Made by a program: the position numbers and the translations under genes. 64,000 nt of DNA from the NCBI GenBank assembly GCA_016342495.1, contig JAEIOG010000016.1, positions 1 through 64,000 of the forward strand, read 5' to 3'. Below are positions 2,349 through 64,000 of the stretch, in pieces (the stretch's first letter is position 1; each line of letters begins with the position of its first letter). The notes under the pieces were generated by a model. The model was not told the DNA's origin, ran no database searches, and saw only the letters and a program-made list of their open reading frames with translations. This stretch comes from Phycisphaerae bacterium (GTDB lineage Bacteria > Planctomycetota > Phycisphaerae > Sedimentisphaerales > SM23-30).

Positions 2349-2436
2349 AATTTGTTTTCCTTTTTTTATTTTTTTTAGCAGGCCTGCTAAGTGCAGAGCT
2401 TACTATTATAGGATTAAGTGGTTTTTTATTTTTAAC

Positions 2437-2580: not shown

Positions 2581-2582
2581 CT

Positions 2583-4553: not shown

Positions 4554-4556
4554 GAT

Positions 4557-4731
4557 AAATGTAGGACAAGCATCTTGCTTGTCTTGTATCCCATAATGTT
4601 AATCAAGTAACATACTTGATGGTTTAGCAGGGCTTTTTCTTCCATAATTATTTTATTCTTTTTTGCTTATATCGATTATTTTTTTAACTGGCCTTGTTGG
4701 CAAAAAGACAAGCAGGATGCTTGTCCTACTT
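4557..4731. repeat. ~175-bp direct repeat flanking a RAYT gene, left copy
   Basis: Nearly identical to 5358-5529. Each copy is bounded by 23-bp inverted repeats differing at one base (4561-4583 and 4707-4729; core ACAAGCATCTTGCTTGT is itself palindromic). With the transposase between them, the two copies form a composite unit 4557-5529. A single related palindrome lies alone at 31507-31529. Confidence 0.85.
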
Positions 4732-4736
4732 GAATG

Positions 4737-5354: not shown

Positions 5355-5357
5355 TGC

Positions 5358-5529
5358 AAATGTAGGACAAGCATCTTGCTTGTCTTGTATCCCATAATGT
5401 TAATCAAGTGACACACTTGATGGTTTAGCAGTTTTTTTCTTCTTTAATTATTTTCCTCTTTTTTTTTATGTCGATTGTTTTTTAACTGGCCTTGTTGGAG
5501 AAAAGACAAGCAGGATGCTTGTCCTACTT
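5358..5529. repeat. ~172-bp direct repeat flanking a RAYT gene, right copy
   Basis: Partner of 4557-4731, with the same terminal inverted repeats at 5362-5384 and about 5504-5526. Differences are concentrated in the T-rich middle. It abuts the stop codon of serS at 5524, so the repeat end supplies the last bases of that gene's 3' region. Confidence 0.85.
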
Positions 5530-6792: not shown

Positions 6793-6964
6793 TGCTTATA
6801 AATCCTTTTTTTCCTGACAAGATAACCATTAATACGGTGTTACCAGAGTGATAATTGGCGATAAAACCATACCTTTTGAGTATAAATCATCAAATATTAC
6901 CAATAAAGCGGATTATTATAGCCGAAAAACCTCTGTCGGTAAAATGGAAATTCCAGCTCATTAA

Positions 6965-6999
6965 AAAAGCCAATCAACTCAGCAGGTTAATTGGCTTTT
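6965..6999 (-). terminator. Rho-independent terminator after the dockerin-protein gene
   Basis: A 10-bp perfect stem, AAAAGCCAAT (6965-6974) with ATTGGCTTTT (6990-6999). In the minus direction the hairpin is followed by a T-run. It lies 23 bases past the stop codon at 7023. Confidence 0.8.
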
Positions 7000-7022
7000 A
7001 ATCAGTTATATATAATAAAAAA

Positions 7023-7778
7023 CTAATCGATCGGCACGCAACCAGCATCATCAGGGGTAACTTTGCAATCCAGCAGCCAATTGGATGCCAGCAATGAAAA
7101 GTCAATCAGGTCAACCTTGCAGTCGCCATTGATATCCCCGAGGATATCATAGTCACAGGCCCGTACCGAGCCGATTGCTCCGACGGCATCGATATCAGCC
7201 CCGACAGTTGTGCCAGTTTGACCGCCTTCATTGGGGTCATCGATCAGCTGGACGGCATCAAATACCAGCGTATTAGCGGCAAAACCGGTAAAGATCGCAT
7301 CAATATCGAGCGAGGAAGTCGCCCCAAAGACCTTGCCCACTTCATAATAACCATCATTATTACTGTCATAAAGGGCCGGATCACCCAGCAGGGCTGCAGT
7401 TTCAGGCGTGGGACGCAGGGCGACAAAGGTGTCTTCTACATCTGAGCCAACTTCAAATACATGTACATCAGCCAGGTCATCTCCGCTATTGACCAGGAAA
7501 TTATCGACAAAGCCCAGTTCTATCTTGCCGCCGCGGCCTAAAGTAATAAAGAAGTCTGAGGATGAACCCTGGGGTATCCCAAGTGCATCGGTCGGGTCAA
7601 GATGGGCTGTCGGGGCCGGGCCACCGCTGTACATATTATCATAACTCAGCACCACATCGGCAAAGCTGGCAATGCCATGGGGGAATTCAATCCCGCCATA
7701 AAGCTCAGCTGAAACCTTTGAAACCAGCGATAAATTGGCCAATAACCCGATTACTAACATAATTCTAAACATTTTCAT
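7023..7778 (-). CDS. secreted protein with C-terminal dockerin-like repeat
   Basis: A 251-residue exported protein of unknown activity. Residues 1-24 form a Sec signal peptide (hydrophobic LVIGLLANLSLVS, ending SAE). The middle is an acidic beta-rich domain with no motif I can name (GGKIELGFVDNF, DVHVFEVGSDVEDTFV), resembling domains found in planctomycete cell-surface proteins. The C-terminus has the Ca-binding dockerin-like signature DILGDINGDCKVDLIDFSLL followed by ASNWL, with a short tail (CVPID). Such ends are widespread in Phycisphaerae secreted proteins, where they probably mediate cell-surface retention rather than a true cellulosome. Upstream is an AT-rich promoter region; a terminator follows. 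Confidence 0.8.
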   Translation of the reverse strand: MKMFRIMLVIGLLANLSLVSKVSAELYGGIEFPHGIASFADVVLSYDNMYSGGPAPTAHLDPTDALGIPQGSSSDFFITLGRGGKIELGFVDNFLVNSGDDLADVHVFEVGSDVEDTFVALRPTPETAALLGDPALYDSNNDGYYEVGKVFGATSSLDIDAIFTGFAANTLVFDAVQLIDDPNEGGQTGTTVGADIDAVGAIGSVRACDYDILGDINGDCKVDLIDFSLLASNWLLDCKVTPDDAGCVPID

Positions 7779-7879
7779 AACATTTCCTCCATTATTTGAA
7801 AAACTTAATTTAACACAGCTATTATATCAGATTGCTTAGCTAAAAGTCAATATCGAAGATGAAAGCAGGGGATATGCCT

Positions 7880-8182
7880 TTAATCGGTCTGACTGGTCTG
7901 GCGGTGTTTATGGATTTTCCAGATACAGCTTCCAATTACTATCAGGCAGGTGGCTTTCCAGAGGAGCATCCACCACGGATGCCACCACGAGCCAGTGCGG
8001 ATCTCGACCAGGTCGGATATGCCAAAAGCCACAAACCCGATTGCTAGCATCATCTGATTGAACTTCAACGCCGCTACGGTTTTTCTTAGCTTAAACATAC
8101 AGAATCCACCAAAACCAAACCAGATAAAGGCTTCGATAAGGTTATAACTCTGGCAGGCATTATAGGCGAGAATGTTATTCAT
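7880..8182 (-). CDS. small hypothetical membrane protein
   Basis: A 100-residue protein with three likely membrane segments (around AFIWFGFGGFCMF, MMLAIGFVAFGI and LLWKATCLIVIGSCIW) separated by short charged loops. It resembles no family that I recognise. It is a single gene between two minus-strand neighbours with a terminator-like hairpin on its upstream side. The coding call rests on length, hydrophobic pattern and lack of a better frame; a spurious frame is possible. Confidence 0.55.
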   Translation of the reverse strand: MNNILAYNACQSYNLIEAFIWFGFGGFCMFKLRKTVAALKFNQMMLAIGFVAFGISDLVEIRTGSWWHPWWMLLWKATCLIVIGSCIWKIHKHRQTSQTD

Positions 8183-8224
8183 ATTTTTATTTTAATTGAT
8201 GTATTGTGACGTTTGCAAACAAAA

Positions 8225-8251
8225 AAGGGCTCAGCGATTAACTGAACCCTT
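8225..8251 (-). terminator. terminator of the fabZ-acp-fabZ-KS-KS operon
   Basis: Stem AAGGGCTCAG (8225-8234) with CTGAACCCTT (8242-8251), one wobble pair, preceded on the plus strand by A-residues, so that a minus-strand transcript ends with a T-run. It lies about 18 bases past the last gene of the operon. Confidence 0.7.
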
Positions 8252-8268
8252 GTGATTAACTTACTTGC

Positions 8269-9585
8269 TTATTCACTAAATTCCTTGATTATCAGAGTAT
8301 TATTCTGGCCGCCAAAGCCGAAGGAATTACTCATGGCAATCTTGACTTTGGCCTTGCGCGGGGCATTGGGCACATAGTCCAGGTCACAGACCGGGTCAGG
8401 GTTTTGCAGGTTTATGGTGGGCGGCAATACCTGGTCCCGGATAGCTAATACGCAGGTGACCAGTTCGGTCACGCCAGCGGCGGCGATCAGGTGGCCCAGC
8501 ATACTCTTGACCGAAGATACCGGAGTCTTATAAGCCTGGTCGCCAAAGGCATTTTTGATGACCTTGGTTTCAATTGAATCATTTTCGGAGGTGCTGGTGC
8601 CATGGGCACTGATATAGTCAACATCGGCAGGAGTGATCCCGGCATCAGCTAAGGCCAGCTTGACCGCTGCGGTTCCGCCGCGACCTTCATCGTGCTGGTC
8701 GGTTACCCGGAAGGCATCAGCAGTTGAGCCATAGCCGATGATTTCAGCTAAGATTGTCGCACCACGCTTTTGTGCCGATTCCAGTGATTCGATAATAATC
8801 GCTCCGGCTCCTTCGCCTAAGACAAAGCCGTCCCGGTCCACATCAAAGGGACGTGATGAAGTTTTAATATCATCATTGCGGGTGGAAAGGGCGGTCAGGC
8901 GATTAAAGCCGGTTACCCCTAAAGGGTGAATCATCGAATGGGCGCCACCGGTTATTAAAATATCAGCTTCGCCATTGCGAATCATTTCGGTGGCTTCGCC
9001 AATAGCCTGGGTCGATGCCGCACAAGCAGTCAGACAACTATAACAGGGCCCGCGGGTGCCAAAGAGATTAGCTAAATGGGCCGCAGGCATGTTGGCTTCC
9101 TGTTCGATCTCGGAATTAACTTCCATTTGTTCATTGGCGATCTGGCCCCATTGTTTCCAGTCCATTTGTCGCTTTTCTTTATTCCAGCTGAAGACACAGG
9201 CATTAATGAAACTATCGAATGCCAGTGGCCCTTCGCCAGCTCCCAGATAAATACCTACCCGGGGCATATCTACATCGTTTGTATCATTGCTGCCCGGTGC
9301 CGGTAGATTAGCCTGTTGCCAGGCCTGCAACGCCGCTCCGATCATAAAGCCACTGTTGCGGGTGGCGTGTTTGTGGTTATTACGCAACTGCTCGGGCAAT
9401 CCATCAAGAAAATTAAAATCTTTAGAGACCTGGGCGGCAAACTTTGTCGGGAAAGTTGAGGCATCAAAAAGCTCAATCATCTCGATACCGCATTGGCAAT
9501 CCATCAATGCCTGCCAGACCGTCTCAACATCAAAACCCAAGGGCGTTACCAGCCCCATACCTGTTATTACAACTCTTTTAGTCAT
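8269..9585 (-). CDS. beta-ketoacyl-ACP synthase, FabF-like, active (KS-alpha of an unusual cluster)
   Basis: Condenses acyl chains with malonyl-ACP. All thiolase-fold catalytic residues of the FabF family are present: Cys188 in CLTACAAS, His in SAHGTSTSENDS, His in KSMLGHLIAAAG. The start chosen (MTKRVVITGMG) has GGAG 9 bases upstream; an in-frame start 27 bases earlier at 9612 lacks one. At 438 residues it is longer than housekeeping FabF owing to an insertion around residues 135-165 (the region with WNKEKRQMDWKQW). It is the last gene of a five-gene operon and directly follows a KS homologue lacking all catalytic residues, an arrangement like KS-alpha/KS-beta pairs in type II PKS and aryl-polyene clusters. 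A second, ordinary fabF lies at 19299-20540. Confidence 0.88.
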   Translation of the reverse strand: MTKRVVITGMGLVTPLGFDVETVWQALMDCQCGIEMIELFDASTFPTKFAAQVSKDFNFLDGLPEQLRNNHKHATRNSGFMIGAALQAWQQANLPAPGSNDTNDVDMPRVGIYLGAGEGPLAFDSFINACVFSWNKEKRQMDWKQWGQIANEQMEVNSEIEQEANMPAAHLANLFGTRGPCYSCLTACAASTQAIGEATEMIRNGEADILITGGAHSMIHPLGVTGFNRLTALSTRNDDIKTSSRPFDVDRDGFVLGEGAGAIIIESLESAQKRGATILAEIIGYGSTADAFRVTDQHDEGRGGTAAVKLALADAGITPADVDYISAHGTSTSENDSIETKVIKNAFGDQAYKTPVSSVKSMLGHLIAAAGVTELVTCVLAIRDQVLPPTINLQNPDPVCDLDYVPNAPRKAKVKIAMSNSFGFGGQNNTLIIKEFSE

Positions 9586-9724
9586 ATCTATATACTCCGT
9601 TTTGATAGCCACGCCAGAAGTTAAAATTAAGCTTAAAAAACCATCTCTGACTCCAATATTAAAGGTATCAGGAGGGTTTGACGCTGGCGTCCGTTTTGAC
9701 TAGAATCAAAACTTACTTGCTTTC

Positions 9725-11026
9725 TTATTTTCCAATTACCGCCGCTGCGGTTTGACCGCCATGGCTATAGCAGGTAACCAGCACATTCTTGATTTCAGCT
9801 TCAGTTACCGTCGTTGGCATATTCAAGCCCAATGATTGATTGTCACAATTGATATTCGCTGGCACCTTGCCATTTTTGATAATCAATGCCGCTGTCGCAA
9901 AATCGATAGCAGAGGCACCTGCACCGCAAATACCAATTCTACTTTTGGTTGCCAGCACCGGGATTTCACCGGCCAGTTCGCCAAAGACCTTTTTAATCGC
10001 AGTCGCTTCAGCTTTGTCATCTGCGATGCGGCCTATGCCATTGGGGATAATCAAATCAATATCTTCAGGTTTTAGCCCTGCCTGATTTAACGCCGCCTGC
10101 ATGGCGATTTCACAGCCCTTGCCATCAGCTTCGCAATCAATATAGTTACTTTGATTATATGAACTGCCAAAACCTTTCAGCTCGGCATAAATCTCAGCTC
10201 CACGCTGAGTTGCCCGCTGGTATTCTTCCAGAATAACCATCGCACCGCCATCGCCCTGTACGACACCATTAGCGTTGGCATCGAAAGGTCGACAGGAACC
10301 TGCCGGGTTATCATTATCTTTGGTATTAAGCCTATCCATCAGGCAATGGCGAATCTGACCCATTGCATTTATCCGGTTTTCGGCACCGCCAGTTATCATG
10401 ATGTCGGCTTTGTCTGATGCGATATGACGATAAGCTTCGTTGATAGCCAGCATGCCGGAAACCTCACCGGAGGTGATGGCATTGCTGGGCCCTTGCAGAT
10501 CATAGATGATACTTATGTGGCAACTGGGCATATTGGGCAGGTACTTTAGCATCCACAAAGGGGTAAGGTTATTCATACCCTCGGCTCCCCATTTTTTCAT
10601 GTCGAATTTGTCGCCATCGACGCATTCACATGCAGCTAAGGTAAGCTCTTCCAGATCACAGCACATTGTCCCTGCCCCGATATTGACGCCACTGCGGGTA
10701 GGTTCGATATCGATAGGCCCATCGGGATTGTCCGCCCGGGTCTTTAAACCGGCATCTTTCATCGCACTATCAGTTGCGATCACCGCAAAGATGATATCGC
10801 GACTCATCAGCTTGGCTGCTTTGCGATGTGATTTTGGCAGAAACTTATTAACTTTGACCTCAGGTGCTTCACCGCCAACCTGGCAGCTGAAACTTACCGG
10901 ATCAAATGATTTGATACGATCAATGCCAACTTTTCCTTCAAGCAGACCATTGAAATATTCATCTTTATCTGCACCCAGAGCATTGATTATACCCAGCCCT
11001 GAGATGACTACACGACGTTTAGACAT
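9725..11026 (-). CDS. ketosynthase homologue lacking catalytic residues (chain-length-factor-like)
   Basis: 433 residues with clear FabF-type ends (RRVVISGLGIINALG; GGQTAAAVIGK) and the usual glycine-rich ITGGAENRIN and CRPFDANANGVVQGDGGA blocks. The active-site Cys position is Glu188 (GPSNAITSGEVSG), the first His motif reads NGIGRIADD, and the second reads KSRIGICGAGAS, so all three catalytic residues of the Cys-His-His triad are replaced. By analogy with chain-length factors (KS-beta), it probably dimerises with the neighbouring active KS and shapes the product-chain pocket. In PKS KS-beta the Cys is usually replaced by Gln; Glu is a further deviation. It is translated between the second FabZ and the active KS. 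Confidence 0.85.
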   Translation of the reverse strand: MSKRRVVISGLGIINALGADKDEYFNGLLEGKVGIDRIKSFDPVSFSCQVGGEAPEVKVNKFLPKSHRKAAKLMSRDIIFAVIATDSAMKDAGLKTRADNPDGPIDIEPTRSGVNIGAGTMCCDLEELTLAACECVDGDKFDMKKWGAEGMNNLTPLWMLKYLPNMPSCHISIIYDLQGPSNAITSGEVSGMLAINEAYRHIASDKADIMITGGAENRINAMGQIRHCLMDRLNTKDNDNPAGSCRPFDANANGVVQGDGGAMVILEEYQRATQRGAEIYAELKGFGSSYNQSNYIDCEADGKGCEIAMQAALNQAGLKPEDIDLIIPNGIGRIADDKAEATAIKKVFGELAGEIPVLATKSRIGICGAGASAIDFATAALIIKNGKVPANINCDNQSLGLNMPTTVTEAEIKNVLVTCYSHGGQTAAAVIGK

Positions 11027-51577: not shown

Positions 51578-54500
51578 ATGGCAGAAAACAGGAAATTAAG
51601 TGATTTTTGTGGAAAATATTCATTATCGAAGACTTTAAGGTTTGAATTGCGGCCTGTGGGAGAAACCGCCGACCATATTGAAGATTTCAAGAATCAGGCC
51701 TTGAAACAGATCGTCGCTCAGGACAAAAAAAGAGCGGATGACTATCAGCAGATCAAGAAAATACTGGATAATTATCATCGCCATTTCATTGAATCGGTAC
51801 TGGCAGAGCCGATTTTGACAGCTGAAGATCAGAAAAATGCTAAAGGAAAAGTGGAGAAATATGGCATTAATTCAGCTTTTGAAGCTTATGTAACAGCTAA
51901 AAATAAAAATGCGACAAAAGATGAAAAAAAAACCTATCAAACTATTCAGGACAACTTAAGAAAAATAATTGCAGAAGAATTTTCTTTGAGAAGCAAAGAC
52001 TTCTACATCTATAAAGGCGAATTTTCCAAGCTTATTAATAAAGTGGGATCGGGAAATAACAAAACCGAAGGTCGCTTGTGGCACTGGCTAAGAAGCGGGC
52101 TGGATAATGAAGAAATCACACAGGAAGAATTTGATTCTGCCTGTGAATATATTGCCAATTTTGATAAATTCACTACATATTTCACGGGTTTTAATGAAAA
52201 CCGCAATAATTTGTATGTCAAAGATGCTAACTCTACGGCAATTGCCTATAGAATTATCCATGAAAATATGGAAAAGCATTTCGCTAATTGTTTGCGTTTT
52301 GTCCAGATTCAAGGAAAATACCCTGAATTAGCCAATGGCTTGTCTGTTTTTGGTGAAAACTTTACACCACCCTCGTTTCTGAACTATCTGGGCCAAAGCG
52401 GGATTGACAGGTACAATGAAACAATTGGTCATAAATCTGATGACATCAATGCCAAGGGGGTTAATCAGCTTATCAATGAATACAGACAAAAAAATAAACT
52501 TAAAGCACGTGAATTGCCTTTTATGACGGTACTGTATAAACAAATTTTGAGTGATCGGGCCAGCGGTTTTATCATTGATGAATTCAATGATGGCAAATCT
52601 GTATTTGAAGCAATTAAAGCATTTCATGCTGAAATAACAGATAGTGATATAATCACTGAATTACAGAATTGCCTTGCTGAATTCCTGATCTTAGAAAATC
52701 AGGATTCGATTTATATCAAGAACGACTTATCTTTGACAGGCATTTCCAATAAACTATGGGGAGACTGGTCATATATTAAGCAAGCGATAAGTAACTGCTG
52801 CCGGGATAAACTTGGGAAAACTGAAAACCAGATTGAGACAATAATTAAGCAAGATTATTATCCACTAGGTTTTGTTCAACAGACACTGGATTATTATTGT
52901 GAAGCAATCGACAAACCTGAAAATCAGAAGGACTTATTGCAGTATTTTAACACTTTTTCTCAGGATGAAAAACTGCTCACAGATATTTTCCAACAGGCAT
53001 ATCATGAAGCTAAAGCAACTCTTGAATTGGATGATTTTGATAATGATCGTCGGACCCCTGGAAAGGATCTACCTGATGGCGGTAAAGGATTCATTCAAAT
53101 AGAAAAAATCAAGCAATACCTCGATAGTGTTTTAGCTATTGGCCATTTTGTGAAACCGCTGTATATGATAAAAAGCGGCAAAATGATTCAATTGGAAGAA
53201 AAGAACACAGATTTTTATGATGCATTCAATGCTTTATATGACCAGCTTGCCAATGCAATTACTTTGTATAACAAAGTTCGCAACTATGTTACCAAAAAAC
53301 CGTATAAGACAGATAAATTTAAGATTAATTTTGAAAACAGTACATTGCTGGACGGCTGGGATGTAAATAAAGAGACAGCTAATACATCGGTTTTATTATT
53401 ACGCAATGGCAAATATTATCTGGGAATAATGCCAAAAAATGCTAATAATATTTTTAATTACAAGCCAGAATCTAGCGATAGTGAAAACAAGACCCAAACC
53501 AAAATAAATTTACAGCAACAGATATTAGCTGATATTGCAGATGATTATTTTGAAAAGATGGTATATAAATTATTACCTGACCCATCAAGAATGTTGCCTA
53601 AAGTATTTTTTGCTACTAGTAATATTGAAATATATAATCCTTCTCAAGAAGTAAAAGACATTCGCAAGTTAGGTTTATTTAAGAAAGATGCCGCAAATCC
53701 TGAAGCAATGCATAAATGGGTTGATTTTATGAAAGAATCACTAAAGAAACATCCTGAATGGAATGAGTATTTTAATTTTAATTTTTTAAGAACCTCGCAA
53801 TATCCAGATGTCAGCCGGTTTTATAAAGATGTAGCTGATCAAGGTTATTGTTTATCATTTGACAAAATCAAAACCAGCTATATTGAAGAGCAGATCGCAT
53901 CCGGCAATCTTTACTTATTTGAAATCTACAGCAAGGATTTCTCACCCTATAGCAAAGGCCGCCCGAACCTGCATACCAGTTATTGGAAATTGCTGTTCAG
54001 CAAAGAAAATCTCTCAGATGTAGTTTTAAAACTTAACGGTCAGGCTGAAATATTTTTTCGGCCCGCTTCGTTAAAGAGAACTGAAGTTGTGATTCATCCT
54101 GCCAATAAGCCTGTAAGAAACAAAAACCCCTTAAATGCCAAGAAGCAAAGCATCTTTGATTATGACATTATCAAAGACCGGCGTTTTACCCAGGATAAGT
54201 TCTTTTTCCATTGTCCCATTACGATTAATTTTAAGCAAGGCGGCTTTGGTAAATTTAATGATGGGGTCAATGCCTATCTTGCTGGTAATCCTGATATAAA
54301 CATGATTGGCATTGACCGGGGTGAACGGCATTTGCTGTATTATTCTGTAATAGATCAAAATAGTAATATTATCGAACAAGGTAGTCTCAATACCATCGCC
54401 AACAGTTTAACTAGTAATGGCAAAGAAGTTCAAAAGCAAACCGATTATCATAGCTTGCTGGATGACAAGGAAAAGCAAAGAGATGTCGCCCGCAAAACAT

Positions 54501-55477
54501 GGTCTGCGGTCGAAAATATCAAGGAATTAAAAGCTGGCTACCTTTCCCATGTCGTCCACAAACTGGCAACCCTGATGATTAAGCATAATGCTGTGGTTTG
54601 CCTAGAAGATTTGAATTTTGGCTTTAAACGCGGCAGAATAAAAGTTGAAAAACAGGTATATCAGAAATTTGAAAAATCACTTATCGACAAGCTTAATTAT
54701 CTTGTATTTAAAGATAAAGATTTCGGCCAGGCCGGACATTATCTGGGTGGTTACCAACTTACAGCACCATTTGAATCATTTCAAAAGCTTGGCAAACAAA
54801 GCGGATTCCTGTTTTATGTAACTTCTGACTATACCTCCAAGATTGACCCGGTTACCGGTTTTGTCAGCCGCATAAATTCCCGTTATGAATCAGTGGCAAA
54901 AAGCCAGGAATTATTTAATAAATTCGATTCGATTTCTTACAATTATCAAAAGAATTATTTTGAATTTTACCTTGATTATGCAAAATTCCGCAATGGCGAC
55001 AGTGGCAAGTGGAAAGCTTGTACTCATGGTAATCAGCGTTATCGCTATAATAAAGCTGATATGGATTATAAATGTTATGATGTCACCGCTGAATTAAAAA
55101 CTTTATTTGACAAAGCTGGTATTGATTATGCGAGCGGTAATAATCTTAAAGATACTATTGTAAACCAGCAAGACAAAACTTTTTTTAGTTCTTTACTGTT
55201 TTATTTATCGTTAACTTTACAGTTGCGTCATACCTATAAATCCAATGGCATTGAAAAGGATTTCATACTTTCGCCGGTTGCCAATGACGAGGGTATTTTC
55301 TTCGATTCCCGTCAATATGAAACAATGAATAATTCTCCATTGCCTATCGATGCTGATGCCAATGGTGCGTATAATATTGCTCGTAAAGGACTTCTAACTT
55401 TAAAACAGATCAATACTGCTGGGAAGCCATCGGCAATTAAAAATTCCGAATGGTTTGATTTTGTACAGAACAAATAA
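51578..55477 (+). CDS. cas12a: Type V-A CRISPR effector Cas12a
   Basis: RNA-guided DNA nuclease that also processes its own crRNA. 1,299 residues, typical Cas12a length. N-terminal YSLSKTLRFEL (14-24) begins the WED/REC region. The crRNA-processing block is DRRFTQDKFFFHCPITINF. RuvC-I IGIDRGERH with Asp913, RuvC-II VCLEDLNFGFKRGR with Glu1010, the Nuc domain between II and III, and RuvC-III IDADANGAYNIA with Asp1258/Asp1260: all catalytic residues are present. AAGGAG lies 8 bases before the ATG, and a strong promoter precedes it. It is first in a six-gene operon, matching the TGTTGTAGAT-type repeat of the array at 63162. Confidence 0.98.
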   Translation: MAENRKLSDFCGKYSLSKTLRFELRPVGETADHIEDFKNQALKQIVAQDKKRADDYQQIKKILDNYHRHFIESVLAEPILTAEDQKNAKGKVEKYGINSAFEAYVTAKNKNATKDEKKTYQTIQDNLRKIIAEEFSLRSKDFYIYKGEFSKLINKVGSGNNKTEGRLWHWLRSGLDNEEITQEEFDSACEYIANFDKFTTYFTGFNENRNNLYVKDANSTAIAYRIIHENMEKHFANCLRFVQIQGKYPELANGLSVFGENFTPPSFLNYLGQSGIDRYNETIGHKSDDINAKGVNQLINEYRQKNKLKARELPFMTVLYKQILSDRASGFIIDEFNDGKSVFEAIKAFHAEITDSDIITELQNCLAEFLILENQDSIYIKNDLSLTGISNKLWGDWSYIKQAISNCCRDKLGKTENQIETIIKQDYYPLGFVQQTLDYYCEAIDKPENQKDLLQYFNTFSQDEKLLTDIFQQAYHEAKATLELDDFDNDRRTPGKDLPDGGKGFIQIEKIKQYLDSVLAIGHFVKPLYMIKSGKMIQLEEKNTDFYDAFNALYDQLANAITLYNKVRNYVTKKPYKTDKFKINFENSTLLDGWDVNKETANTSVLLLRNGKYYLGIMPKNANNIFNYKPESSDSENKTQTKINLQQQILADIADDYFEKMVYKLLPDPSRMLPKVFFATSNIEIYNPSQEVKDIRKLGLFKKDAANPEAMHKWVDFMKESLKKHPEWNEYFNFNFLRTSQYPDVSRFYKDVADQGYCLSFDKIKTSYIEEQIASGNLYLFEIYSKDFSPYSKGRPNLHTSYWKLLFSKENLSDVVLKLNGQAEIFFRPASLKRTEVVIHPANKPVRNKNPLNAKKQSIFDYDIIKDRRFTQDKFFFHCPITINFKQGGFGKFNDGVNAYLAGNPDINMIGIDRGERHLLYYSVIDQNSNIIEQGSLNTIANSLTSNGKEVQKQTDYHSLLDDKEKQRDVARKTWSAVENIKELKAGYLSHVVHKLATLMIKHNAVVCLEDLNFGFKRGRIKVEKQVYQKFEKSLIDKLNYLVFKDKDFGQAGHYLGGYQLTAPFESFQKLGKQSGFLFYVTSDYTSKIDPVTGFVSRINSRYESVAKSQELFNKFDSISYNYQKNYFEFYLDYAKFRNGDSGKWKACTHGNQRYRYNKADMDYKCYDVTAELKTLFDKAGIDYASGNNLKDTIVNQQDKTFFSSLLFYLSLTLQLRHTYKSNGIEKDFILSPVANDEGIFFDSRQYETMNNSPLPIDADANGAYNIARKGLLTLKQINTAGKPSAIKNSEWFDFVQNK

Positions 55478-55504
55478 AGTGTCCTAAGATATGGAGAAAT
55501 TATC

Positions 55505-58500
55505 ATGAATAAAGATATAAAACAAAATTCGGTATCAGAGTATTCATACAATAAAGCTTTAAGGTTCAAGTTGGAACATTTAGCTGGCCCCTTGCCTGCT
55601 ATTCCTCAAGGGCAGGCAAATTCGAAAAATTTGATTGAAACTGGCAATTTATTGGCAGATGAGTTTGAAAAGTTTATCTACATCGTCAACGATGATGGAA
55701 CTTTGAATAGAAGAAATGGGCAGAAAGTCTTAACCAAACATATTTCTATCAAAAAGCAATGGCTACGTCAATATTTCAAAAATGACTTTTATGCATTCGG
55801 AAGACAGGGCAAAGATTCTTCTCTAGCGGATTATAAATACATACAAACGCCTTTATGTAAATGGTTTGAAGATTTTAGAGAGCAACTAAGTAGTCTCCAG
55901 CAAGTTGTTTCTTATGCTGATCATCAAAAAAGCAGGAGAAGTGAAATAGCGAACATTTTGACTGTTATTAACAGCAAAGGTTATTTTGTATTTGTCAAAG
56001 ATTTTTGCGAATACGCTAATCATAAAGCAAATCAGTCATTACAGAATAACCTGCAAAAGCTTGTTAATGAATTTGAGCAACAGCTAACCGCTGGTATCAA
56101 TGAATATCTTCCCGCTCAATCTGCCGGGCTTGTTATAGCTCAGGGCAGTATGAATTATTATACTGTCAATAAAAAGCCTAAGAATTACCAAAAGGAAATC
56201 GATGGGTTGGGAATAAAACTGGATGAATTGGAGCATAAATATACTGAATATAAAGAGAACAAGGCGAACCAAAAAAGTAAACTCTATGAACTGATAAATA
56301 CTCATGCCTCTAAAGAGAGGATAAAGGAAGAATGTGATCTTTTTGGTGATAACTGTGATGATAATTGCCTGGAAAAGGTTACAGAATTGACTCTCCAGAT
56401 TGAGAAACTCAATGAAAATAAGGATAGCAGCAATAATCTGTCTTTGGAGTTAAAAAAGGAAATAAAAAACCTCAAACAGCAGCGAGGACACTATTTTATT
56501 AAACAAACCAGAGGGAAAACTCATGATATGTATTTTAAAACATACTGGAAATATTGCGAAGAATACAAGAAAATTGCTATTGACAGGGGCAAGATGCTGG
56601 CAAAGATAAATGGAATCAAGCGAGAGCAGATCGAAAGTGGAAATCTGAAATACTGGTCACTTATTTTCGACAATGGTAGCGAAAAACATTTATGGCTTAT
56701 TCCCAAGGATAAAATGCAGGAATTCCACGATAGTATTACCGCCGATAAGCAAAGCTTATGCATTTTACATACCCCTCACTCTTTGACCATGCGGGCCCTG
56801 CATAAACTGTGTTTTGCAGAAGAAAGCAGTTTTGTAGAAAATATGCCAGGAGAATTGAAATCTCTTCAAAGTGGAGTCAAAAAAGCAACAAATGATCAGA
56901 ATAACCGCAATTTCAATGCGGATAGAAGCAAGGATGTTTTAGCACTGGAGTTTTTGAAAAAACTGATGCAAAGCAAATATGCACATGATATTCTTGATTT
57001 GCAACATTTTGATCTCAGCGAACTACAGAATACAGACGATCTGAACAAGTTTGAGGCAGCTCTGGAGCAAGCTTGCTATTATATGGAGCCAATTGCCTTG
57101 TCAGCAGAATCTGCAGATAATGCAATTAATACTTATAATATATTAATATTTAAGATAACCTCCTATGATCTTGAGAAAAGAAATCAAAACACCCATCAGA
57201 CAGCTGAAACTAAGGGCAAAACCCATACCAGAGAAATCTGGGATGCCTTTTGGATGGGAGATGCAAACATACGTCTAAATCCAGAGATAAAGATACGTTT
57301 TCGTCAGAAAAATGAAGAATTGACAGAATATATGGAGAATAAAGGTTTTGATCTTTCCAAGGTGAAAAATCGCTTTCTTCAGGAGCAATACACCGCAGGT
57401 TTTACTTTTACTTTAAATGCCGGCAAAAGGTATCCGCGACTGGCATTTGCCAAAACAGAAGACATCTGCCAGGAGATAAATAACTTTAATCAAAAATTCA
57501 ATGAACAGAATTGGCAGGGAACCTATAAATATGGCATAGATCGTGGCAATATTGAGCTGAGTACTCTTTGTATTGCCAAATTTGACCAGAATGATACATA
57601 TAATTATAATGGCAAATCTTACTTGAAACCATCTTTCCCGCAAGGCCAGCAGGATATTAAAGTATATGAATTGAAAAAACAATGGTATGATCAAAAACAA
57701 AAATCGGATATGGAAAATATCCCCTATGAAAACCGTAAAGAAAAACGAATAATCGCAAATCTATCATATTTTATTGATAAGATCGAAGATGCCAGCTGGT
57801 TTGATAAAAAAAACTGCAGCTGTATTGACCTGACTACCGCCAAGGTGATAAAAGATAAGATTATTCTCAATGGCGATGTGCTGACTTTTCTGAAACTGAA
57901 GAAAGAAGCCGCCAAGCGTGTACTTTTTGAGCTGGTTGCCGATGGCAAAATAACAGATCAGAATAAGGAATTGAAGTGGGCTAGTGACAATACTGATTCA
58001 TTTAAATCGATTGAACTGAGAACAGAGCAAGGAAATACCATCTACTTTTTTGAAGGCAAGCATGGCAGAAACTTTGAAGGTTTACTGGTCAAGGATGATA
58101 TTGTCTATACCCGGGATAATATCAAAGACAATTTACAAAGCTACCTTGATAACCTGCTAGAAGAAAAATCCAAGCAATCCAGCAATCCTTACAAACATGT
58201 CCCGCCAATCGCTAAGATCAATAATCTAAGAAAGGCAATAGCTGCCAATATGGTAGGGGTAGTCTGTTATTTACAAAAGCAATATCCTGGAATTATTGTT
58301 TTGGAAGATCTGGAAGACGATACCATAAAGAAACATTTTTCGCAAATGAATATAAATATCTCTAGACCATTGGAACGGGCATTGATTGATAAATTTCAAA
58401 CTGTGGGGAAGGTTCCACCGCACATCAAAGACATTATAGAAATCAGGGAGCGTTTCAGGAGAGATGGTAAAGCCAAATCATCCCAGCTGGGAGCTCTTGT

Positions 58501-59116
58501 TTTCGTAGATAAAAGTGAAACCAGTGCACAATGTCCCTATTGCGGCGAAAGCTGGACATGGGACAAGTCGAGAAAAGACAAATTAAAGTTTCTGGAACAC
58601 AGATATATTTGCGGTGAGAATGAACCTTGCGGTTTTGATACCGAAAATATTGAGGGAAAGACAGATTTCCTGAAAGAAATAAATGACCCCGATAAAATAG
58701 CAGCCTATAATGTAGCTAAAAAAATACAAGATTATAAAAATATTGAACAATTGAAAATACTTACAGGAGAAAATAAGAAACAGTATAAAGGAACCAATGG
58801 TAAATCGAAACCTCAAACTGAGTACAGACAACCTAAAAAATATCAGGGCTTTTCACTTGAAATACCGAAGAAAGATAAAGCACAGAAAAACAGCCAAGGC
58901 ACTGAAATAGATAAACTCATCAAATTATTGCTAAATAAAAAAGCCAAAGAAGTATCTAATATCTTAAAGCAACTTAAGGCAAAGGATTTATCCAGGAGCC
59001 AGATTGAACAGATAGAGAAAATTCTTAATAAAAGGCATGATGCTGGCCAGGCCGACTATAATCCTCAGGTAAAAAAATATTTTGAAATTTTTAATGAAAT
59101 AAAGAGTGGTAATTAA
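55505..59116 (+). CDS. second Type V effector, Cas12a2-like, with zinc ribbon
   Basis: 1,203 residues, 27 bases behind cas12a with its own GGAG. It shares the opening motif YSxxKALRFKL with Cas12a and a complete RuvC site: YGIDRG (Asp679), IVLEDLEDD (Glu934), NDPDKIAAYNVAKK (Asp1063). RuvC spacing differs from Cas12a (255 and 129 residues against 97 and 250), and a zinc ribbon (CPYCGESW, Cys1010/1013, then Cys1036/1042) occupies the Nuc position. That is the layout of Cas12a2, an RNA-activated nuclease that shares Cas12a crRNAs and causes abortive DNA degradation. A coiled-coil-like insertion (about 235-325) and a basic C-terminal tail of about 120 residues after RuvC-III are extra. A new subtype is the alternative. 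Confidence 0.78.
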   Translation: MNKDIKQNSVSEYSYNKALRFKLEHLAGPLPAIPQGQANSKNLIETGNLLADEFEKFIYIVNDDGTLNRRNGQKVLTKHISIKKQWLRQYFKNDFYAFGRQGKDSSLADYKYIQTPLCKWFEDFREQLSSLQQVVSYADHQKSRRSEIANILTVINSKGYFVFVKDFCEYANHKANQSLQNNLQKLVNEFEQQLTAGINEYLPAQSAGLVIAQGSMNYYTVNKKPKNYQKEIDGLGIKLDELEHKYTEYKENKANQKSKLYELINTHASKERIKEECDLFGDNCDDNCLEKVTELTLQIEKLNENKDSSNNLSLELKKEIKNLKQQRGHYFIKQTRGKTHDMYFKTYWKYCEEYKKIAIDRGKMLAKINGIKREQIESGNLKYWSLIFDNGSEKHLWLIPKDKMQEFHDSITADKQSLCILHTPHSLTMRALHKLCFAEESSFVENMPGELKSLQSGVKKATNDQNNRNFNADRSKDVLALEFLKKLMQSKYAHDILDLQHFDLSELQNTDDLNKFEAALEQACYYMEPIALSAESADNAINTYNILIFKITSYDLEKRNQNTHQTAETKGKTHTREIWDAFWMGDANIRLNPEIKIRFRQKNEELTEYMENKGFDLSKVKNRFLQEQYTAGFTFTLNAGKRYPRLAFAKTEDICQEINNFNQKFNEQNWQGTYKYGIDRGNIELSTLCIAKFDQNDTYNYNGKSYLKPSFPQGQQDIKVYELKKQWYDQKQKSDMENIPYENRKEKRIIANLSYFIDKIEDASWFDKKNCSCIDLTTAKVIKDKIILNGDVLTFLKLKKEAAKRVLFELVADGKITDQNKELKWASDNTDSFKSIELRTEQGNTIYFFEGKHGRNFEGLLVKDDIVYTRDNIKDNLQSYLDNLLEEKSKQSSNPYKHVPPIAKINNLRKAIAANMVGVVCYLQKQYPGIIVLEDLEDDTIKKHFSQMNINISRPLERALIDKFQTVGKVPPHIKDIIEIRERFRRDGKAKSSQLGALVFVDKSETSAQCPYCGESWTWDKSRKDKLKFLEHRYICGENEPCGFDTENIEGKTDFLKEINDPDKIAAYNVAKKIQDYKNIEQLKILTGENKKQYKGTNGKSKPQTEYRQPKKYQGFSLEIPKKDKAQKNSQGTEIDKLIKLLLNKKAKEVSNILKQLKAKDLSRSQIEQIEKILNKRHDAGQADYNPQVKKYFEIFNEIKSGN

Positions 59117-59118
59117 TT

Positions 59119-61131
59119 ATGAAAAAATATTATTTATATATTGATGAGAGCGGTCAGTTTAAACATACTGAATCGCATATATCTATGGTAGGTGGTTATA
59201 TAACCCAAAAATCGCCGAATGAAATAAAAGGTCAAATAAAAAAAAGGATCACCCGATTTCGTGACAATCATAAAGAAATTGATTTGGGCGAAAATGATAT
59301 TCATGCTGCAGAACTGCTACATCCGGAAAATTTTCCAGATAAGGCAAACAGAGAAAAATATAAACGAATTCCCGAAAATATCCGCAAAGAATTTATAGAT
59401 GGCTTTAAGACTATCGTAGAAAATATTGCCTGTTTTAAGATAAAAAGTATTAATGAACAATTTACTTTCGGTGATGCCAATGAACAGGATAGATATGGGG
59501 CATGTCTGGGGGCTTTATTTCAAAAGGCTGTCGAACTTATCAATGATGATACGGAGATAGAATTTAATTTTTTGATTGCTAAAAGATCAGGCACATGTTC
59601 GCAAATGGAATTTGACCACGCATGTTACCATGCGGAACTCGGAAAATATTTTCAGGATTTATGTTCAGAAGCGAAAAATCTGACAGTTAAATCTGATTTT
59701 CCATGCGATCGAAAGTTACTTCTGGATTTAGCTGATATTGCCTGCTATTTTCTCCGGAAAGATGATTTTGACAAGATAGAAACGACCAGGCCTAATAAGG
59801 TTTCTTTTAATAAATATCGTGATAACTATAATGATTTTTATAATGAACTCATTGGCAATGGTGAATATGCTACTGCCTATAAAATTGCAGTTAATAAAGA
59901 AGATAAGCAAAAAGTCTTAGATAAATTAACTGAATTAGCTCCAGACCAGAATGATCAGATTCGCTATTTCTTAAATATTGCCTATAATCTTGTCAAAATC
60001 CGTACAAACAATAAAAACGCTCTTGCTGATGCAGAGGCCATATTTACTGAATTATCTAAAATTTCGAATCAAAAGCATGAGTTTACAAATCTTGCATTAA
60101 ACGGCTTGCTGCTTTGTGCCAACCATAGCGGCCAAACTGGCAAGGCTGTGGGGATTTTACAAAAAATCAAACGAAATATGTCTGGCCAGTCAGAATTATC
60201 ACTCTTTAATAACTACACCAATATTCTGGAACTTAGAAACCGGGCTTATAATGATTGGTTCAATGAGTATAATTTTCTGGAAATCATCAATGGTTTCAGC
60301 GATGATGTTGAAAAATATGAAACCTTTTTGTCACTGACTAAGGATGAAGGAATATTTGACCAAAATGATAAATGCTATCTATTGCACAAAATGCTCAGCT
60401 CTTTGGGGCAGGCTTATGCTTTTGCAGGTAGAGTCGCTGGTCAGGATTACTATGAAATTGCAGAGCAATATTTTAATAAAGCTCTGGAGCATTTGCCGGG
60501 GGCAAGTGATGATCGGCGGACAATAAATTATCTGGCTACCCTTTACTGGTATAAAAGTGATAATTGTAAAGCATATAAGCTATTGCGAAAATTTGACCGA
60601 GATTTGCCCGATAAAATAGAAGAAGCTTTGTTCTATACCCTAAAACATTCTGACCGGGATGCCTTTGATTTTTCTATGATTTTGAGACTGCTTGACAGTC
60701 AACAGGTTAATGTGGATTTACTAAACAAAGCAGTCAAAGAAATTAATAAAAAACGTTTTGCGGATGAACATCCTTTCGAATTGATTTATAAGCATCTGGG
60801 GATACTTTTTATGTATTGTGAAGATTATAAAAAGGCGGCAAAACTTTTCAAACAGGCTATTGATATATGTCAGCAGAAAAGCTTTACACTAAATACGATT
60901 TCGCTCCCTATTCTTTTACTGCTGGCAATTGCCTATAAGAAAGATCAAAAGATAGATTCATATAAGCAGCAACTGATAGATTTCAATGAATCATATGATG
61001 ATCTTGTCAACAAATCTATTTATTTCCGAAGTTTTATTGATATTCTAGGTGGCAAAGACACACTTATTTCTCATTGTGAAGCCGAAAATATAGATATTAT
61101 TAACCAGTTTTTACCTTTTATGTATTCTTGA
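59119..61131 (+). CDS. DUF3800 (RNase-H-fold) protein with C-terminal TPR-like repeats
   Basis: 670 residues, starting 2 bases after the second effector's stop, so translationally coupled. The N-terminal ~215 residues are DUF3800: YLYIDESGQF with Asp9/Glu10, DIHAAELLH (His62, Glu65) and DLADIACYFL with Asp206, giving an acidic RNase-H-like putative active site. From about 250 on there is an all-helical region with TPR-like pairs (YLNIAYNLVKIRTNNKNALADA; LYKHLGILFMYCEDYKKAAKLF). DUF3800 proteins occur in mobile and defence contexts; this fusion inside a cas operon is unexplained. It might be a nuclease activated with Cas12a2 or a regulator. Confidence 0.75.
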   Translation: MKKYYLYIDESGQFKHTESHISMVGGYITQKSPNEIKGQIKKRITRFRDNHKEIDLGENDIHAAELLHPENFPDKANREKYKRIPENIRKEFIDGFKTIVENIACFKIKSINEQFTFGDANEQDRYGACLGALFQKAVELINDDTEIEFNFLIAKRSGTCSQMEFDHACYHAELGKYFQDLCSEAKNLTVKSDFPCDRKLLLDLADIACYFLRKDDFDKIETTRPNKVSFNKYRDNYNDFYNELIGNGEYATAYKIAVNKEDKQKVLDKLTELAPDQNDQIRYFLNIAYNLVKIRTNNKNALADAEAIFTELSKISNQKHEFTNLALNGLLLCANHSGQTGKAVGILQKIKRNMSGQSELSLFNNYTNILELRNRAYNDWFNEYNFLEIINGFSDDVEKYETFLSLTKDEGIFDQNDKCYLLHKMLSSLGQAYAFAGRVAGQDYYEIAEQYFNKALEHLPGASDDRRTINYLATLYWYKSDNCKAYKLLRKFDRDLPDKIEEALFYTLKHSDRDAFDFSMILRLLDSQQVNVDLLNKAVKEINKKRFADEHPFELIYKHLGILFMYCEDYKKAAKLFKQAIDICQQKSFTLNTISLPILLLLAIAYKKDQKIDSYKQQLIDFNESYDDLVNKSIYFRSFIDILGGKDTLISHCEAENIDIINQFLPFMYS

Positions 61132-61203
61132 TTTATAATATCATATAGTTCCAGCTTTATCGGGAGAAGATGTTCTTTGGCAAGTTAATAAAGGAAGTAG
61201 CTT

Positions 61204-61764
61204 ATGGAAAGTTATATACCAATTTCGTATTTGAATGATTTTGTTTTTTGTCCGCGCTCGATATATTTTCATCAGCTCCATGGCCGGATTTCAACCCGTC
61301 TATATCAGGGCAAAGCTCAGATAGATGGCAAGGCCGTCCATGAAGCTGTAGATAATCAAACCTATTCAACCCGCAAAAATGTATTGCAAGGCATAGATAT
61401 TTATTGCCAGCAATACGGTATTTGCGGCAAGATAGATATTTTTGATATCGACATAGGTTTGCTTACCGAACGCAAAAAATATATCGCTGTTATTTATGAT
61501 GGCTATATCTTTCAGCTTTATGCCCAGTATTTTTCATTAACGGAAATGGGCCATACTGTCAAAACTATGCGTTTCTACAGCAGCGATGATAATAAAGTCT
61601 ATCCGGTAAAGCTGCCTGAAGATAATCCGGAAATGCTGGGAAAATTTGAGCAGACCGTATACAAGATAAAAACCTATAAATTATCTGACCATGCCCAGGA
61701 TAATCCCGAAAAATGCAAAAATTGTATCTACGAAACTATTTGTGATCAATCATTATATACCTAA
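61204..61764 (+). CDS. cas4: CRISPR-associated exonuclease Cas4
   Basis: Trims and PAM-selects prespacers with Cas1-Cas2. 186 residues. Fe-S Cys16 (FVFCPRSIYF) with C-terminal CKNC...C (171, 174, 180); RecB-like nuclease residues His46, Asp78 in GKIDIFD, Glu89 and Lys91 in LTERKK. It is 72 bases behind the DUF3800 gene with AAGGAAG before the ATG. A Type V companion of cas1-cas2. Confidence 0.95.
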   Translation: MESYIPISYLNDFVFCPRSIYFHQLHGRISTRLYQGKAQIDGKAVHEAVDNQTYSTRKNVLQGIDIYCQQYGICGKIDIFDIDIGLLTERKKYIAVIYDGYIFQLYAQYFSLTEMGHTVKTMRFYSSDDNKVYPVKLPEDNPEMLGKFEQTVYKIKTYKLSDHAQDNPEKCKNCIYETICDQSLYT

Positions 61765-61788
61765 AAACTATAGAACGGATAACAAATC

Positions 61789-62751
61789 ATGTTAAGTGCA
61801 CCAGAATTCAAGCAAAAGCAGATACTTTTTGCTTTGCTCAGTCATGGCGAAAAGCTCAGCTTCAAAAATGATAATATTATCATTAAAGATGCTGATGGCA
61901 AAATCAAACATCAATCTACCTGCTATAGATTATTTGCGATATTTGTCATTGGTCATATTTCAATAACTTCCGGCTTATTACAGCGGGCCGAGAAGTTTGG
62001 TTTTACCATTGTGCTGATGACTCACAGTCTGCGGGTCTATGGCTCATGGTGCTGTCCGGCACGAGGTAATGTCATGTTGCGTAAAAAACAATATGACTAT
62101 AAAGCCCTTGATATTGCCCATCATATTGTCGCTAATAAAATTGATAATCAGCTTAATACCTTAAAAGCTTTGCGTAACAAAAATGATAAGCTTAAAGATT
62201 CTATAGCTTCTATTAAGCAATATCGCCTAGCGGTAGTAACCACCCAGCCAGACCTGCAGGAATTACTGGGGCTGGAAGGTATTGTTTCCCGCCAGTATTT
62301 TCAGGCTTATTTTGCTGATCTTAACTGGATCGCCCGGCGGCCTCGGGTAAAACATGATACCATTAACTGCCTGATGGATATTGGCTATACCCTGCTATTT
62401 AATATGATTGAAGGTCTGCTAAATATTTATGGCTTTGATTTATACAAAGGTATTTATCATCAGCAGTTTTATCAGCGAAAGTCACTGGTATGTGATCTGG
62501 TCGAGCCGTTTCGCCCATTAATTGATGCCCGGATTCGCAAGGCTCATAGTCTTGGCCAGGTAAATGAGGATGATTTTTATATCAAACAAGGTCAATATTC
62601 CTTATTTGGTAAACAGGCCAGTCCTTATATCGCCTGGTTACTGGAACCACTGATGGCCAGAAAACAGGAAATATTCCTGTATGTCCAAAGTTATTATCGC
62701 AGTTTTATGAAAAATAAACCTCTGGAGCAATACCCGGTCTTTAAGATTTAG
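61789..62751 (+). CDS. cas1: CRISPR integrase Cas1
   Basis: Integrates spacers. 320 residues. Catalytic Glu163 in LLGLEGIVSRQYF, His224 in KGIYHQQFYQRKS, and the acidic pair in CDLVEPFRPLID (Asp236/Glu239). The N-terminal beta domain and C-terminal helical domain have normal proportions. It follows cas4 by 24 bases. No fusion with reverse transcriptase or cas4. Confidence 0.97.
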   Translation: MLSAPEFKQKQILFALLSHGEKLSFKNDNIIIKDADGKIKHQSTCYRLFAIFVIGHISITSGLLQRAEKFGFTIVLMTHSLRVYGSWCCPARGNVMLRKKQYDYKALDIAHHIVANKIDNQLNTLKALRNKNDKLKDSIASIKQYRLAVVTTQPDLQELLGLEGIVSRQYFQAYFADLNWIARRPRVKHDTINCLMDIGYTLLFNMIEGLLNIYGFDLYKGIYHQQFYQRKSLVCDLVEPFRPLIDARIRKAHSLGQVNEDDFYIKQGQYSLFGKQASPYIAWLLEPLMARKQEIFLYVQSYYRSFMKNKPLEQYPVFKI

Positions 62752-62760
62752 GAGAATAAT

Positions 62761-63036
62761 ATGCTTTTAGTGTCTTATGATATTAGTAATGACAAGTTAC
62801 GAACTCGTTTTTCAAAATTTCTGTCAAAATTTGGATTTCGCTTGCAATATTCTGTATTTCAGGTTACAAATAGTCAAAGAGTGCTGGAAAATATTATCTC
62901 TGAAATACAAAATAAATTTGGTAAAAAATTTGAACAGACCGACAGCGTTTTTATTTTTCATATGAGTAAAAATTGTAAAAAATACTCTTTTGGCTATGCC
63001 AAAAATGAAGACCAGGAGGTCGTTATCATTGATTAA
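62761..63036 (+). CDS. cas2: CRISPR-associated Cas2
   Basis: Structural partner of Cas1, 91 residues with ferredoxin fold: MLLVSYDISNDKLRTRFSKF, FGFRLQYSVFQV, IFHMSKNCKKYSFG. AGGAG lies 3 bases before the ATG, 9 bases after cas1. Last gene of the operon before the array. Confidence 0.96.
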   Translation: MLLVSYDISNDKLRTRFSKFLSKFGFRLQYSVFQVTNSQRVLENIISEIQNKFGKKFEQTDSVFIFHMSKNCKKYSFGYAKNEDQEVVIID

Positions 63037-63161
63037 TAAACAAAAAATTACAAACCTCGGTCTTAATGGCCGATTTAGCCGTGTTTTGCGGCTGAAGAAC
63101 GTTTTTTTTATTTATATAACTGCGTTTTTGAGCCATTATACACGTTTTTTCAATGGGACCT
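63037..63161 (+). other. CRISPR leader
   Basis: 125 AT-rich bases with long T-runs between cas2 and the first repeat. It has the position and composition of a leader; the array is read on the plus strand from it. No consensus promoter with good spacing could be assigned. Confidence 0.65.
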
Positions 63162-64000
63162 GTCTAGACAACCCATTAAATTTCTACTGTTGTAGATGGT
63201 ATGCAGTATGTGATAGGTGGGAGTCTAGACAACCCATTAAATTTCTACTGTTGTAGATCTTGGCCCCATTCTGGTCACCTCGATATAGTCTAGACAACCC
63301 ATTAAATTTCTACTGTTGTAGATTTAATAAACCGTCGCCGGTTTTGGTTAAGTCTAGACAACCCATTAAATTTCTACTGTTGTAGATGTAAAGGTCAATG
63401 TTCATGATTTTATTGTCTAGACAACCCATTAAATTTCTACTGTTGTAGATCGCCCCGCACATTATAATAAGTAAAATCGTCTAGACAACCCATTAAATTT
63501 CTACTGTTGTAGATGTACTACGTGTAGCTTCTACTTTAGAAGGTCTAGACAACCCATTAAATTTCTACTGTTGTAGATATAAGCTCGATGATTCTCTGCT
63601 CGTCGGTCTAGACAACCCATTAAATTTCTACTGTTGTAGATTTAGTGTGATTATTGTTGTCATTTTTGGTCTAGACAACCCATTAAATTTCTACTGTTGT
63701 AGATGCTGTAAGATTATGACATACAAACTTAGTCTAGACAACCCATTAAATTTCTACTGTTGTAGATTAGCTATGCTTTTTTTATGCGCAGAGTCTAGAC
63801 AACCCATTAAATTTCTACTGTTGTAGATGAAATCGGCTTCTTGATTGAGCATATTGTGTCTAGACAACCCATTAAATTTCTACTGTTGTAGATTGCATAA
63901 AACTGATAACTCGCCACTACGTCTAGACAACCCATTAAATTTCTACTGTTGTAGATTTCTGGAGTTTCCTGGCATTCCCATATTGTCTAGACAACCCATT
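63162..64000 (+). CRISPR. Type V-A CRISPR array, 13 complete repeats plus a partial one
   Basis: 36-nt repeats start at 63162, 63223, 63288, 63352, 63415, 63479, 63543, 63606, 63669, 63732, 63793, 63858 and 63921; a fourteenth begins at 63985 and is cut by the window end. The 13 spacers are 25-29 nt. All complete repeats are identical. Each starts GTCTAGAC (a palindrome) and ends AATTTCTACTGTTGTAGAT, the Cas12a crRNA handle (stem TCTAC/GTAGA). Transcription is on the plus strand, away from cas2. No spacer is repeated and none was recognised to match another part of the window. Confidence 0.99.

Follow-up and report, generated by a model that had tools for sequence, protein, structure and literature searches.

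Tandem loci in which cas12a and cas12a2 share one CRISPR array were published in 2023 by Dmytrenko et al. together with the hypothesis of a two-layer, dual-nuclease response, SuCas12a2 and Cas12a being able to exchange guides (PMC9811890). Of the characterized relatives, Ba1Cas12a3 and ApCas12a4 cut RNA, not DNA, and growth is halted by Cas12a3 and Cas12a4 with no SOS response that could be measured (PMC12851939). TPR-DUF3800 genes have been described beside a sub-branch of Cas12a2 by Altae-Tran et al. in 2023 (PMC10910872), and DUF3800 has been noted in V-A2 and VI-F loci (PMC12669027). The locus investigated here occupies positions 51,578 onwards of the window, i.e. the first 64,000 nucleotides (nt) of contig JAEIOG010000016.1 of a Phycisphaerae bacterium (assembly GCA_016342495.1, forward strand). 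Like the tandem loci of Dmytrenko et al., it combines two Cas12a-family effectors with one array; unlike those, its second effector (effector 2) falls outside Cas12a2 and is followed by a DUF3800-TPR gene. The locus is probably a dual-effector type V-A system with one adaptation module and one array, in which effector 2 would be an RNA-triggered, RNA-cutting nuclease operating on crRNAs (CRISPR RNAs) shared with Cas12a.

Layout of the locus

Six co-directional genes precede the array, an arrangement that is real and far beyond chance:

51578..55477, + strand: cas12a, 1299 aa, RuvC motifs intact; TIGR04330
55505..59116, + strand: effector 2, 1203 aa, RuvC nuclease assigned by its sequence to the Cas12a3/Cas12a4 side, not Cas12a2
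59119..61131, + strand: DUF3800-TPR accessory gene, 670 aa, probable N-terminal DUF3800 domain and TPR repeats
61204..61764, + strand: cas4 (PREFRAN type), TIGR04328 216 bits
61789..62751, + strand: cas1 (PREFRAN type), TIGR04329 406.6 bits
62761..63036, + strand: cas2, TIGR01573 47.3 bits (cut-off 24.5)
63162..64000 in the window, + strand: CRISPR array with the Cas12a-type 3' handle AATTTCTACTGTTGTAGAT, continuing to contig position 66903

The two RuvC effector open reading frames (ORFs) are separated by 27 nt and both carry an N-terminal LRF motif (KTLRFELRP in ORF 1, KALRFKLE in ORF 2), as a first-pass annotation of the DNA letters had correctly recognized. Its statement that both precede a single cas4-cas1-cas2 module and one Cas12a-type array agrees with the presence of only one cas1 in the genome (estimated to be 95% complete), but the intervening 670-aa gene had been overlooked. 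ORF 1 is by all sequence marks an ordinary, presumably DNA-cutting Cas12a: the whole-protein profile TIGR04330 matches with 1141 bits (cut-off 300), the Pfam domains REC1, REC2, PI, RuvC_1 and NUC (including PF18516 and PF18510) are present, and the RuvC motifs GIDRGERHL, LEDLN and DADANGAYN are intact.

Phylogenetic position of effector 2

The PADLOC profiles PDLC01230 and PDLC01232, both labeled "Cas12a", match residues 12-1073 of effector 2 (592 and 580 bits). Its closest PDB relatives by sequence are 21we (255 bits) and 9hlx (232 bits), both Cas12a3, and no Cas12a2 appeared in this search at E values up to 10; a profile made from effector 2 and the two solved Cas12a3 proteins reaches the Cas12a2 structure 8d49 at 49 bits. 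A scan of genome contigs with this profile yielded 14 loci (L007-L020), of which L011 encodes Ba1Cas12a3 and L019 the protein of 21we (100% in the columns aligned). Searches of further genomes (290, 277, 276 and 277) gave two full-length relatives (L039 and L052), a partial true Cas12a2 (L053, 48% identical to SuCas12a2) and short matches, and the Bacteroidota sample (277 genomes) held no additional full-length relative. Peptide patterns from the window effector alone failed to reveal a relative in either genome contigs or viral contigs; profile queries of viral contigs and tblastn against plasmids and phages likewise found none. Among 59 related genomes the window's own genome was the sole match; in a phylum sample of 392 genomes, PDLC01232 detected, besides the own genome, one Cas12a (G015) and short matches in G164. 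The comparison was based on 16 distinct loci (window, L007-L011, L013-L020, L039, L052); L012 was left out, its effector DNA being identical to that of L013 (0 differences in 3660 positions).

In the tree, rooted with the partial SuCas12a2 and with L053 (used as outgroup only), a branch supported at 100/100 parts effector 2 and its 15 relatives from the two Cas12a2 rows. Within the 16 effectors, nine rows including Ba1Cas12a3 and 21we form a clade (100/100), and L008, L009 and L010 a Smithella-type set (98/97) with L052 near to it. In the best tree, the window effector forms a group of its own with L007 and L039, all three encoded in tandem with Cas12a, apart from the nine Ba1-type rows. Sequence identities amount to 39-40% between effector 2 and L007/L039, 28-34% to the other relatives (approximately 30% to the Ba1 group) and 20-21% to SuCas12a2. 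By sequence, effector 2 is accordingly assigned to the Cas12a3/Cas12a4 side of the family and not to Cas12a2, contrary to the label given by the first-pass annotation; a position outside Cas12a2 is what that annotation had itself named as refuting its reading.

Structural model and functional residues

The AlphaFold2 (AF2) model of effector 2 covers 1200 of the 1203 residues, was calculated from an alignment of 14 sequences and is comparable to solved structures mainly over residues 6-644. In the structural comparison, five Cas12a3 chains rank first (Z 20.7-23.0, root-mean-square deviation (rmsd) 11-17, 409-596 residues aligned; best match 21we with Z 23.0, rmsd 11.6 and 596 aligned), followed by Cas12a2 (Z 17.1-20.2; 8d4a with Z 20.2, rmsd 17.5 and 558 aligned) and Cas12a (Z 17.2 and below); the Foldseek order is identical. 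This ranking is taken as support only, because the alignment underlying the model included both solved Cas12a3 proteins.

The catalytic RuvC residues D679, E934 and D1063 and a zinc ribbon with four cysteines are retained in effector 2; the D/E/D triad and at least four cysteines in the zinc-ribbon stretch occur in all 16 effectors. The first-pass annotation had regarded an altered RuvC spacing and the zinc ribbon as expected of Cas12a2: RuvC residues and ribbon are there, the label belongs to the wrong branch. As triad and zinc ribbon are common to Cas12a3, Cas12a2 and Cas12a4, they are not specific to Cas12a3 either. The position of Ser469, the residue contacting the protospacer-flanking sequence in Ba1Cas12a3 (PMC12851939), is kept in 16/16 effectors and also in both Cas12a2 rows, and therefore does not discriminate.

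More informative are two regions that differ between the characterized families. Cas12a2 possesses aromatic clamps formed by Y465/Y1080 and Y1069/F1092 (PMC9849127); at the three of these four positions that were compared (Y465 lies outside the fragment used), effector 2 has Thr at 1069, a gap at 1080 and Ser at 1092. All 16 effectors have a shortened stretch from RuvC-II to the clamp, and the Cas12a2 clamp segment is absent from effector 2, a trait reported for Cas12a3; L007 and L039 retain Phe at position 1092. The second region is the tRNA-loading domain of Ba1Cas12a3 (residues 855-960), deletion of which strongly reduces activity (PMC12851939). Its columns contain 35 residues in the window effector versus 101-118 in nine Ba1-type effectors; 32-44 residues are present in 7 of the 16 effectors and 36 in both Cas12a2 rows. 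Judged by the alignment, effector 2 thus lacks the approximately 105-residue loading domain of Ba1Cas12a3, and the short form may be ancestral, since it is found in seven effectors and in both Cas12a2 rows. In summary of these comparisons, effector 2 resembles Cas12a3 (Ba1Cas12a3 9hlx and 21we) in its side of the family, its RuvC site with zinc ribbon and the missing clamp segment, and differs from the Ba1 type in the missing loading domain, the low identity and the RuvC-I and RuvC-II motifs. ApCas12a4, set against it by description only, possibly belongs to the same lineage, being no Cas12a2 and having no Ba1-type loading domain.

Proposed mechanism and alternative readings

By analogy with the characterized relatives, Cas12a would process the array transcript and cut matching invader DNA, and effector 2 would bind the same crRNAs, so that one pool arms both enzymes. 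Effector 2 would recognize invader transcripts with a suitable flanking sequence; its triggered RuvC site would then cut cellular RNA, either tRNA or another RNA, and arrest growth, the DNA not being degraded. The grouping outside Cas12a2 together with the missing clamp residues leads to the expectation of RNA-triggered RNA cutting and not of abortive DNA destruction; without the tRNA-loading domain, the RNA that is cut may be tRNA or another. The two-layer response from one spacer set proposed by the first-pass annotation survives in part: the idea of two layers on a shared array fits the anatomy of the locus, although it had already been published for cas12a/cas12a2 (PMC9811890), and an abortive destruction of DNA is not expected. 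The DUF3800-TPR protein would act, as our best guess, as accessory nuclease or regulator of effector 2. The proposal extends the published tandem idea to the Cas12a3/Cas12a4 side, and a lineage lacking the tRNA-loading domain offers a place to ask what decides the collateral substrate.

Several observations weigh against this interpretation. The activity of effector 2 is a prediction from its sequence and from analogy, and no spacer target was found in phages, plasmids or viral contigs: searches of phages and plasmids with array DNA (L002:1-3004) that spans approximately 47 of the 58 spacers produced 6 and 4 records, all with E values of at least 0.3 and none judged to be a target, and exact 24-mers from 4 of the 58 spacers had no match in viral contigs. 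SuCas12a2 uses K784/R785 for crRNA processing (PMC9811890), and effector 2 has Asn/Arg at these positions. The RuvC-I and RuvC-II motifs of the window group are Cas12a2-like (GIDRG..LSTLC and LEDL), whereas the Ba1 group has DNGE and KEGF. In the structural comparison, the highest Z-score of a Cas12a2 (20.2) is level with the lowest of a Cas12a3 (20.7), and the confidence of the model is middling (mean predicted local distance difference test (pLDDT) score 61.5). The branch that joins L007 and L039 to the window has a support of only 91/91, and alternative lineage orders are not rejected by the approximately unbiased (AU) test: the window group may be joined to the Ba1 group (p 0.236) or to the Smithella type (p 0.122), or the window may be placed apart from L007/L039 beside the Cas12a2 outgroup (p 0.084). 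Finally, Cas12a and effector 2 distances over 11 tandem loci correlate weakly, with r 0.24, a value reached in 310 of 5000 shuffles; co-inheritance of the two effectors is not supported by this correlation.

Which member of the Cas12a3/Cas12a4 side is present can be stated only tentatively. Effector 2 might belong to the published Cas12a4 clade and perform RNA-triggered RNA cutting on a substrate other than tRNA tails, the accessory gene being an addition: Cas12a4 is described as distinct from Cas12a3 and as having clamp residues of limited conservation (PMC12851939), which is consistent with the separation of the window group from the Ba1 group, with its missing loading domain and with the Phe-1092 kept by two of its three members; the window protein itself, however, has Ser-1092 and no clamp segment, as the same paper reports for Cas12a3, and the likeness to Cas12a4 is one of description only. 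It is also possible, though short of probable, that effector 2 is a divergent Cas12a3 able to trim the 3' tails of tRNAs despite having no Ba1-type loading domain. Its nearest solved relatives and the absent clamp segment argue for this assignment, and a Smithella Cas12a3, Sm3, cleaves tRNA tails with slightly displaced cut positions (PMC12851939); L009, which comes from another Smithella and may or may not resemble Sm3, contains only 32 residues in the loading-domain columns. Against it stand the approximately 30% identity to the Ba1 group and the absence of the very domain whose removal strongly cuts the activity of Ba1Cas12a3. Rather unlikely is the more far-reaching view that the window, L007 and L039 represent an unreported Cas12a-family branch that cuts an undescribed cellular RNA and has gained here an RNase-H-like DUF3800-TPR partner, resulting in a three-part response; both the clamp segment of Cas12a2 and the tRNA-loading domain of Cas12a3 are missing from the group, and, if the view were true, one spacer set would direct DNA cleavage, RNA cleavage and a third element, either an accessory nuclease or an off-switch.

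The reading as a true Cas12a2, degrading DNA as well as RNA, would account for the Cas12a2-like RuvC-I and RuvC-II motifs, the short loading-domain region and the Z-score of 20.2 to 8d4a, but is very improbable in view of the 20-21% identity to SuCas12a2, the lack of any Cas12a2 in the PDB sequence search, the intervening 100/100 branch and the substituted or missing clamp positions; on the basis of tree and clamp the Cas12a2 identity was rejected. Most improbable is a decayed or otherwise inactive effector 2 that leaves Cas12a as sole defender: its divergence (28-40% identity to every relative found) might suggest so, but the reading frame is open over the full length, the RuvC triad and zinc-ribbon cysteines are retained, and two relatives of its own lineage exist in other genomes, also beside Cas12a.

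Gene neighborhoods of the 16 loci

Twelve of the 16 distinct loci have a cas12a gene upstream of effector 2, so that a DNA cutter joined to an RNA-triggered cutter would be the usual layout in this sample; no Cas12a was found in the stretches examined of L015, L017, L018 and L019. The count includes L010, in which Cas12a is represented by a 113-aa C-terminal piece at the contig end, with two small ORFs in between, and L013, in which a RhuM gene separates the effectors. On the stretches examined, ten of the twelve tandem loci have an array with Cas12a-type handle (a variant in L014); the remaining two, L007 and L011, are short contigs on which none was detected. The Cas12a partner in L020 (Spirochaetaceae, 5738-9988) is very divergent, with 1417 aa, 27% identity to the window Cas12a and a long branch.

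A gene directly after effector 2 is present in 8 of the 16 loci: DUF3800-TPR in four (window, L015, L018, L019), RhuM in L016 and L017, Bro-N in L010 and Schlafen AlbA_2 in L007. The genes at this place differ between loci, and it may be an exchangeable accessory slot. The genes beside effector 2 lie at 7431-8624 in L007, 5174-6010 in L010, 7181-8176 in L013, 13623-14669 in L016 and 13471-14496 in L017. The distribution of DUF3800-TPR requires at least three changes on the tree; a functional link with such effectors gains in likelihood from its recurrence on separate branches. Among the 16 loci, the window is the only one that unites DUF3800-TPR with Cas12a, no Cas12a being seen in L015, L018 and L019. 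Upstream of the Cas12a3 with DUF3800-TPR, L018 encodes a sacsin/HATPase-domain protein and an SF1-type helicase (2379-8140); the stretch examined contains an array and no cas4, cas1 or cas2.

The same kind of accessory gene stands beside Cas12a2-family effectors in the loci of PMC10910872 and PMC12669027; Cas12a is present in the window and not mentioned for those loci in the accessible text. Full-text searches, covering neither supplements nor subscription journals, listed no paper that, judged by title, abstract or accessible text, reports a single operon uniting Cas12a with both DUF3800-TPR and an effector of the Cas12a3 side. While the paired layout is already known, the lineage of effector 2 and the three-gene combination look new.

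The DUF3800-TPR gene

The 670-aa gene begins 2 nt after effector 2 on the same strand. With residues 1-270 as query, DUF3800 ranks first among Pfam families (E 0.002, 19.2 bits, slightly below the cut-off of 21); the Pfam scan of the whole protein contains no DUF3800 match. Of the homologues, L015 scores above the cut-off (21.7 bits), L019 (20.5) and L018 (17.3) below it; the L019 homologue is recovered by blastp at 1.7e-13. TPR_12 matches with 1.1e-5 and 26 bits (below the curated cut-off of 30.1), and the profile of the accessory family matches TPR structures (best 6e-12). In the phylum sample the protein was found in the own genome, with two short, weak matches in G006 and G146. The AF2 model, which bears on the question of an RNase-H-like fold, was poor (4 sequences, pLDDT 47.9) and was discarded. 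Altae-Tran et al. suggest that TPR-DUF3800 contributes to interference or else to the biogenesis or degradation of crRNAs (PMC10910872).

CRISPR array and genomic setting

The array begins 125 nt past cas2 and passes the window end; read to the end of the contig (66,985 bases), it comprises 59 exact 36-nt repeats and 58 spacers of 25-32 nt without duplicates, none of which has an exact match elsewhere in the window. The interval from cas2 to the array contains a terminator-like hairpin (63074-63096; the scan as a whole was near chance, with 10 found and 8.8 expected), for which reason the array may have its own transcript. Promoter-like sites were not above chance (50 found versus 50.5 expected).

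To the left of the operon, the following remnant is located:

50909..50952, - strand: 3'-half copy of tRNA-Pro(CGG), 44 nt exact; tRNA 21.3 bits, below the gathering score of 29

The complete tRNA-Pro(CGG) gene is found on another contig (C178, L022); a 16S rRNA gene was not detected in the assembly. The G+C content drops from 42.8% in the 10.9 kb before the 44-nt copy to 31-37% in stretches of the operon (29-40% in single genes). The copy borders the low-G+C operon on the left and is probably a scar of integration. The operon would then have been brought in, probably, by an element that inserted into a tRNA-Pro gene; the other end of this putative element was not found. The product of the gene adjoining the tRNA copy (49919-50836) is a diadenylate cyclase of the DisA/DacZ type that includes a DacZ_P sensor domain (PF02457 1.2e-22, PF21755 3.1e-9).

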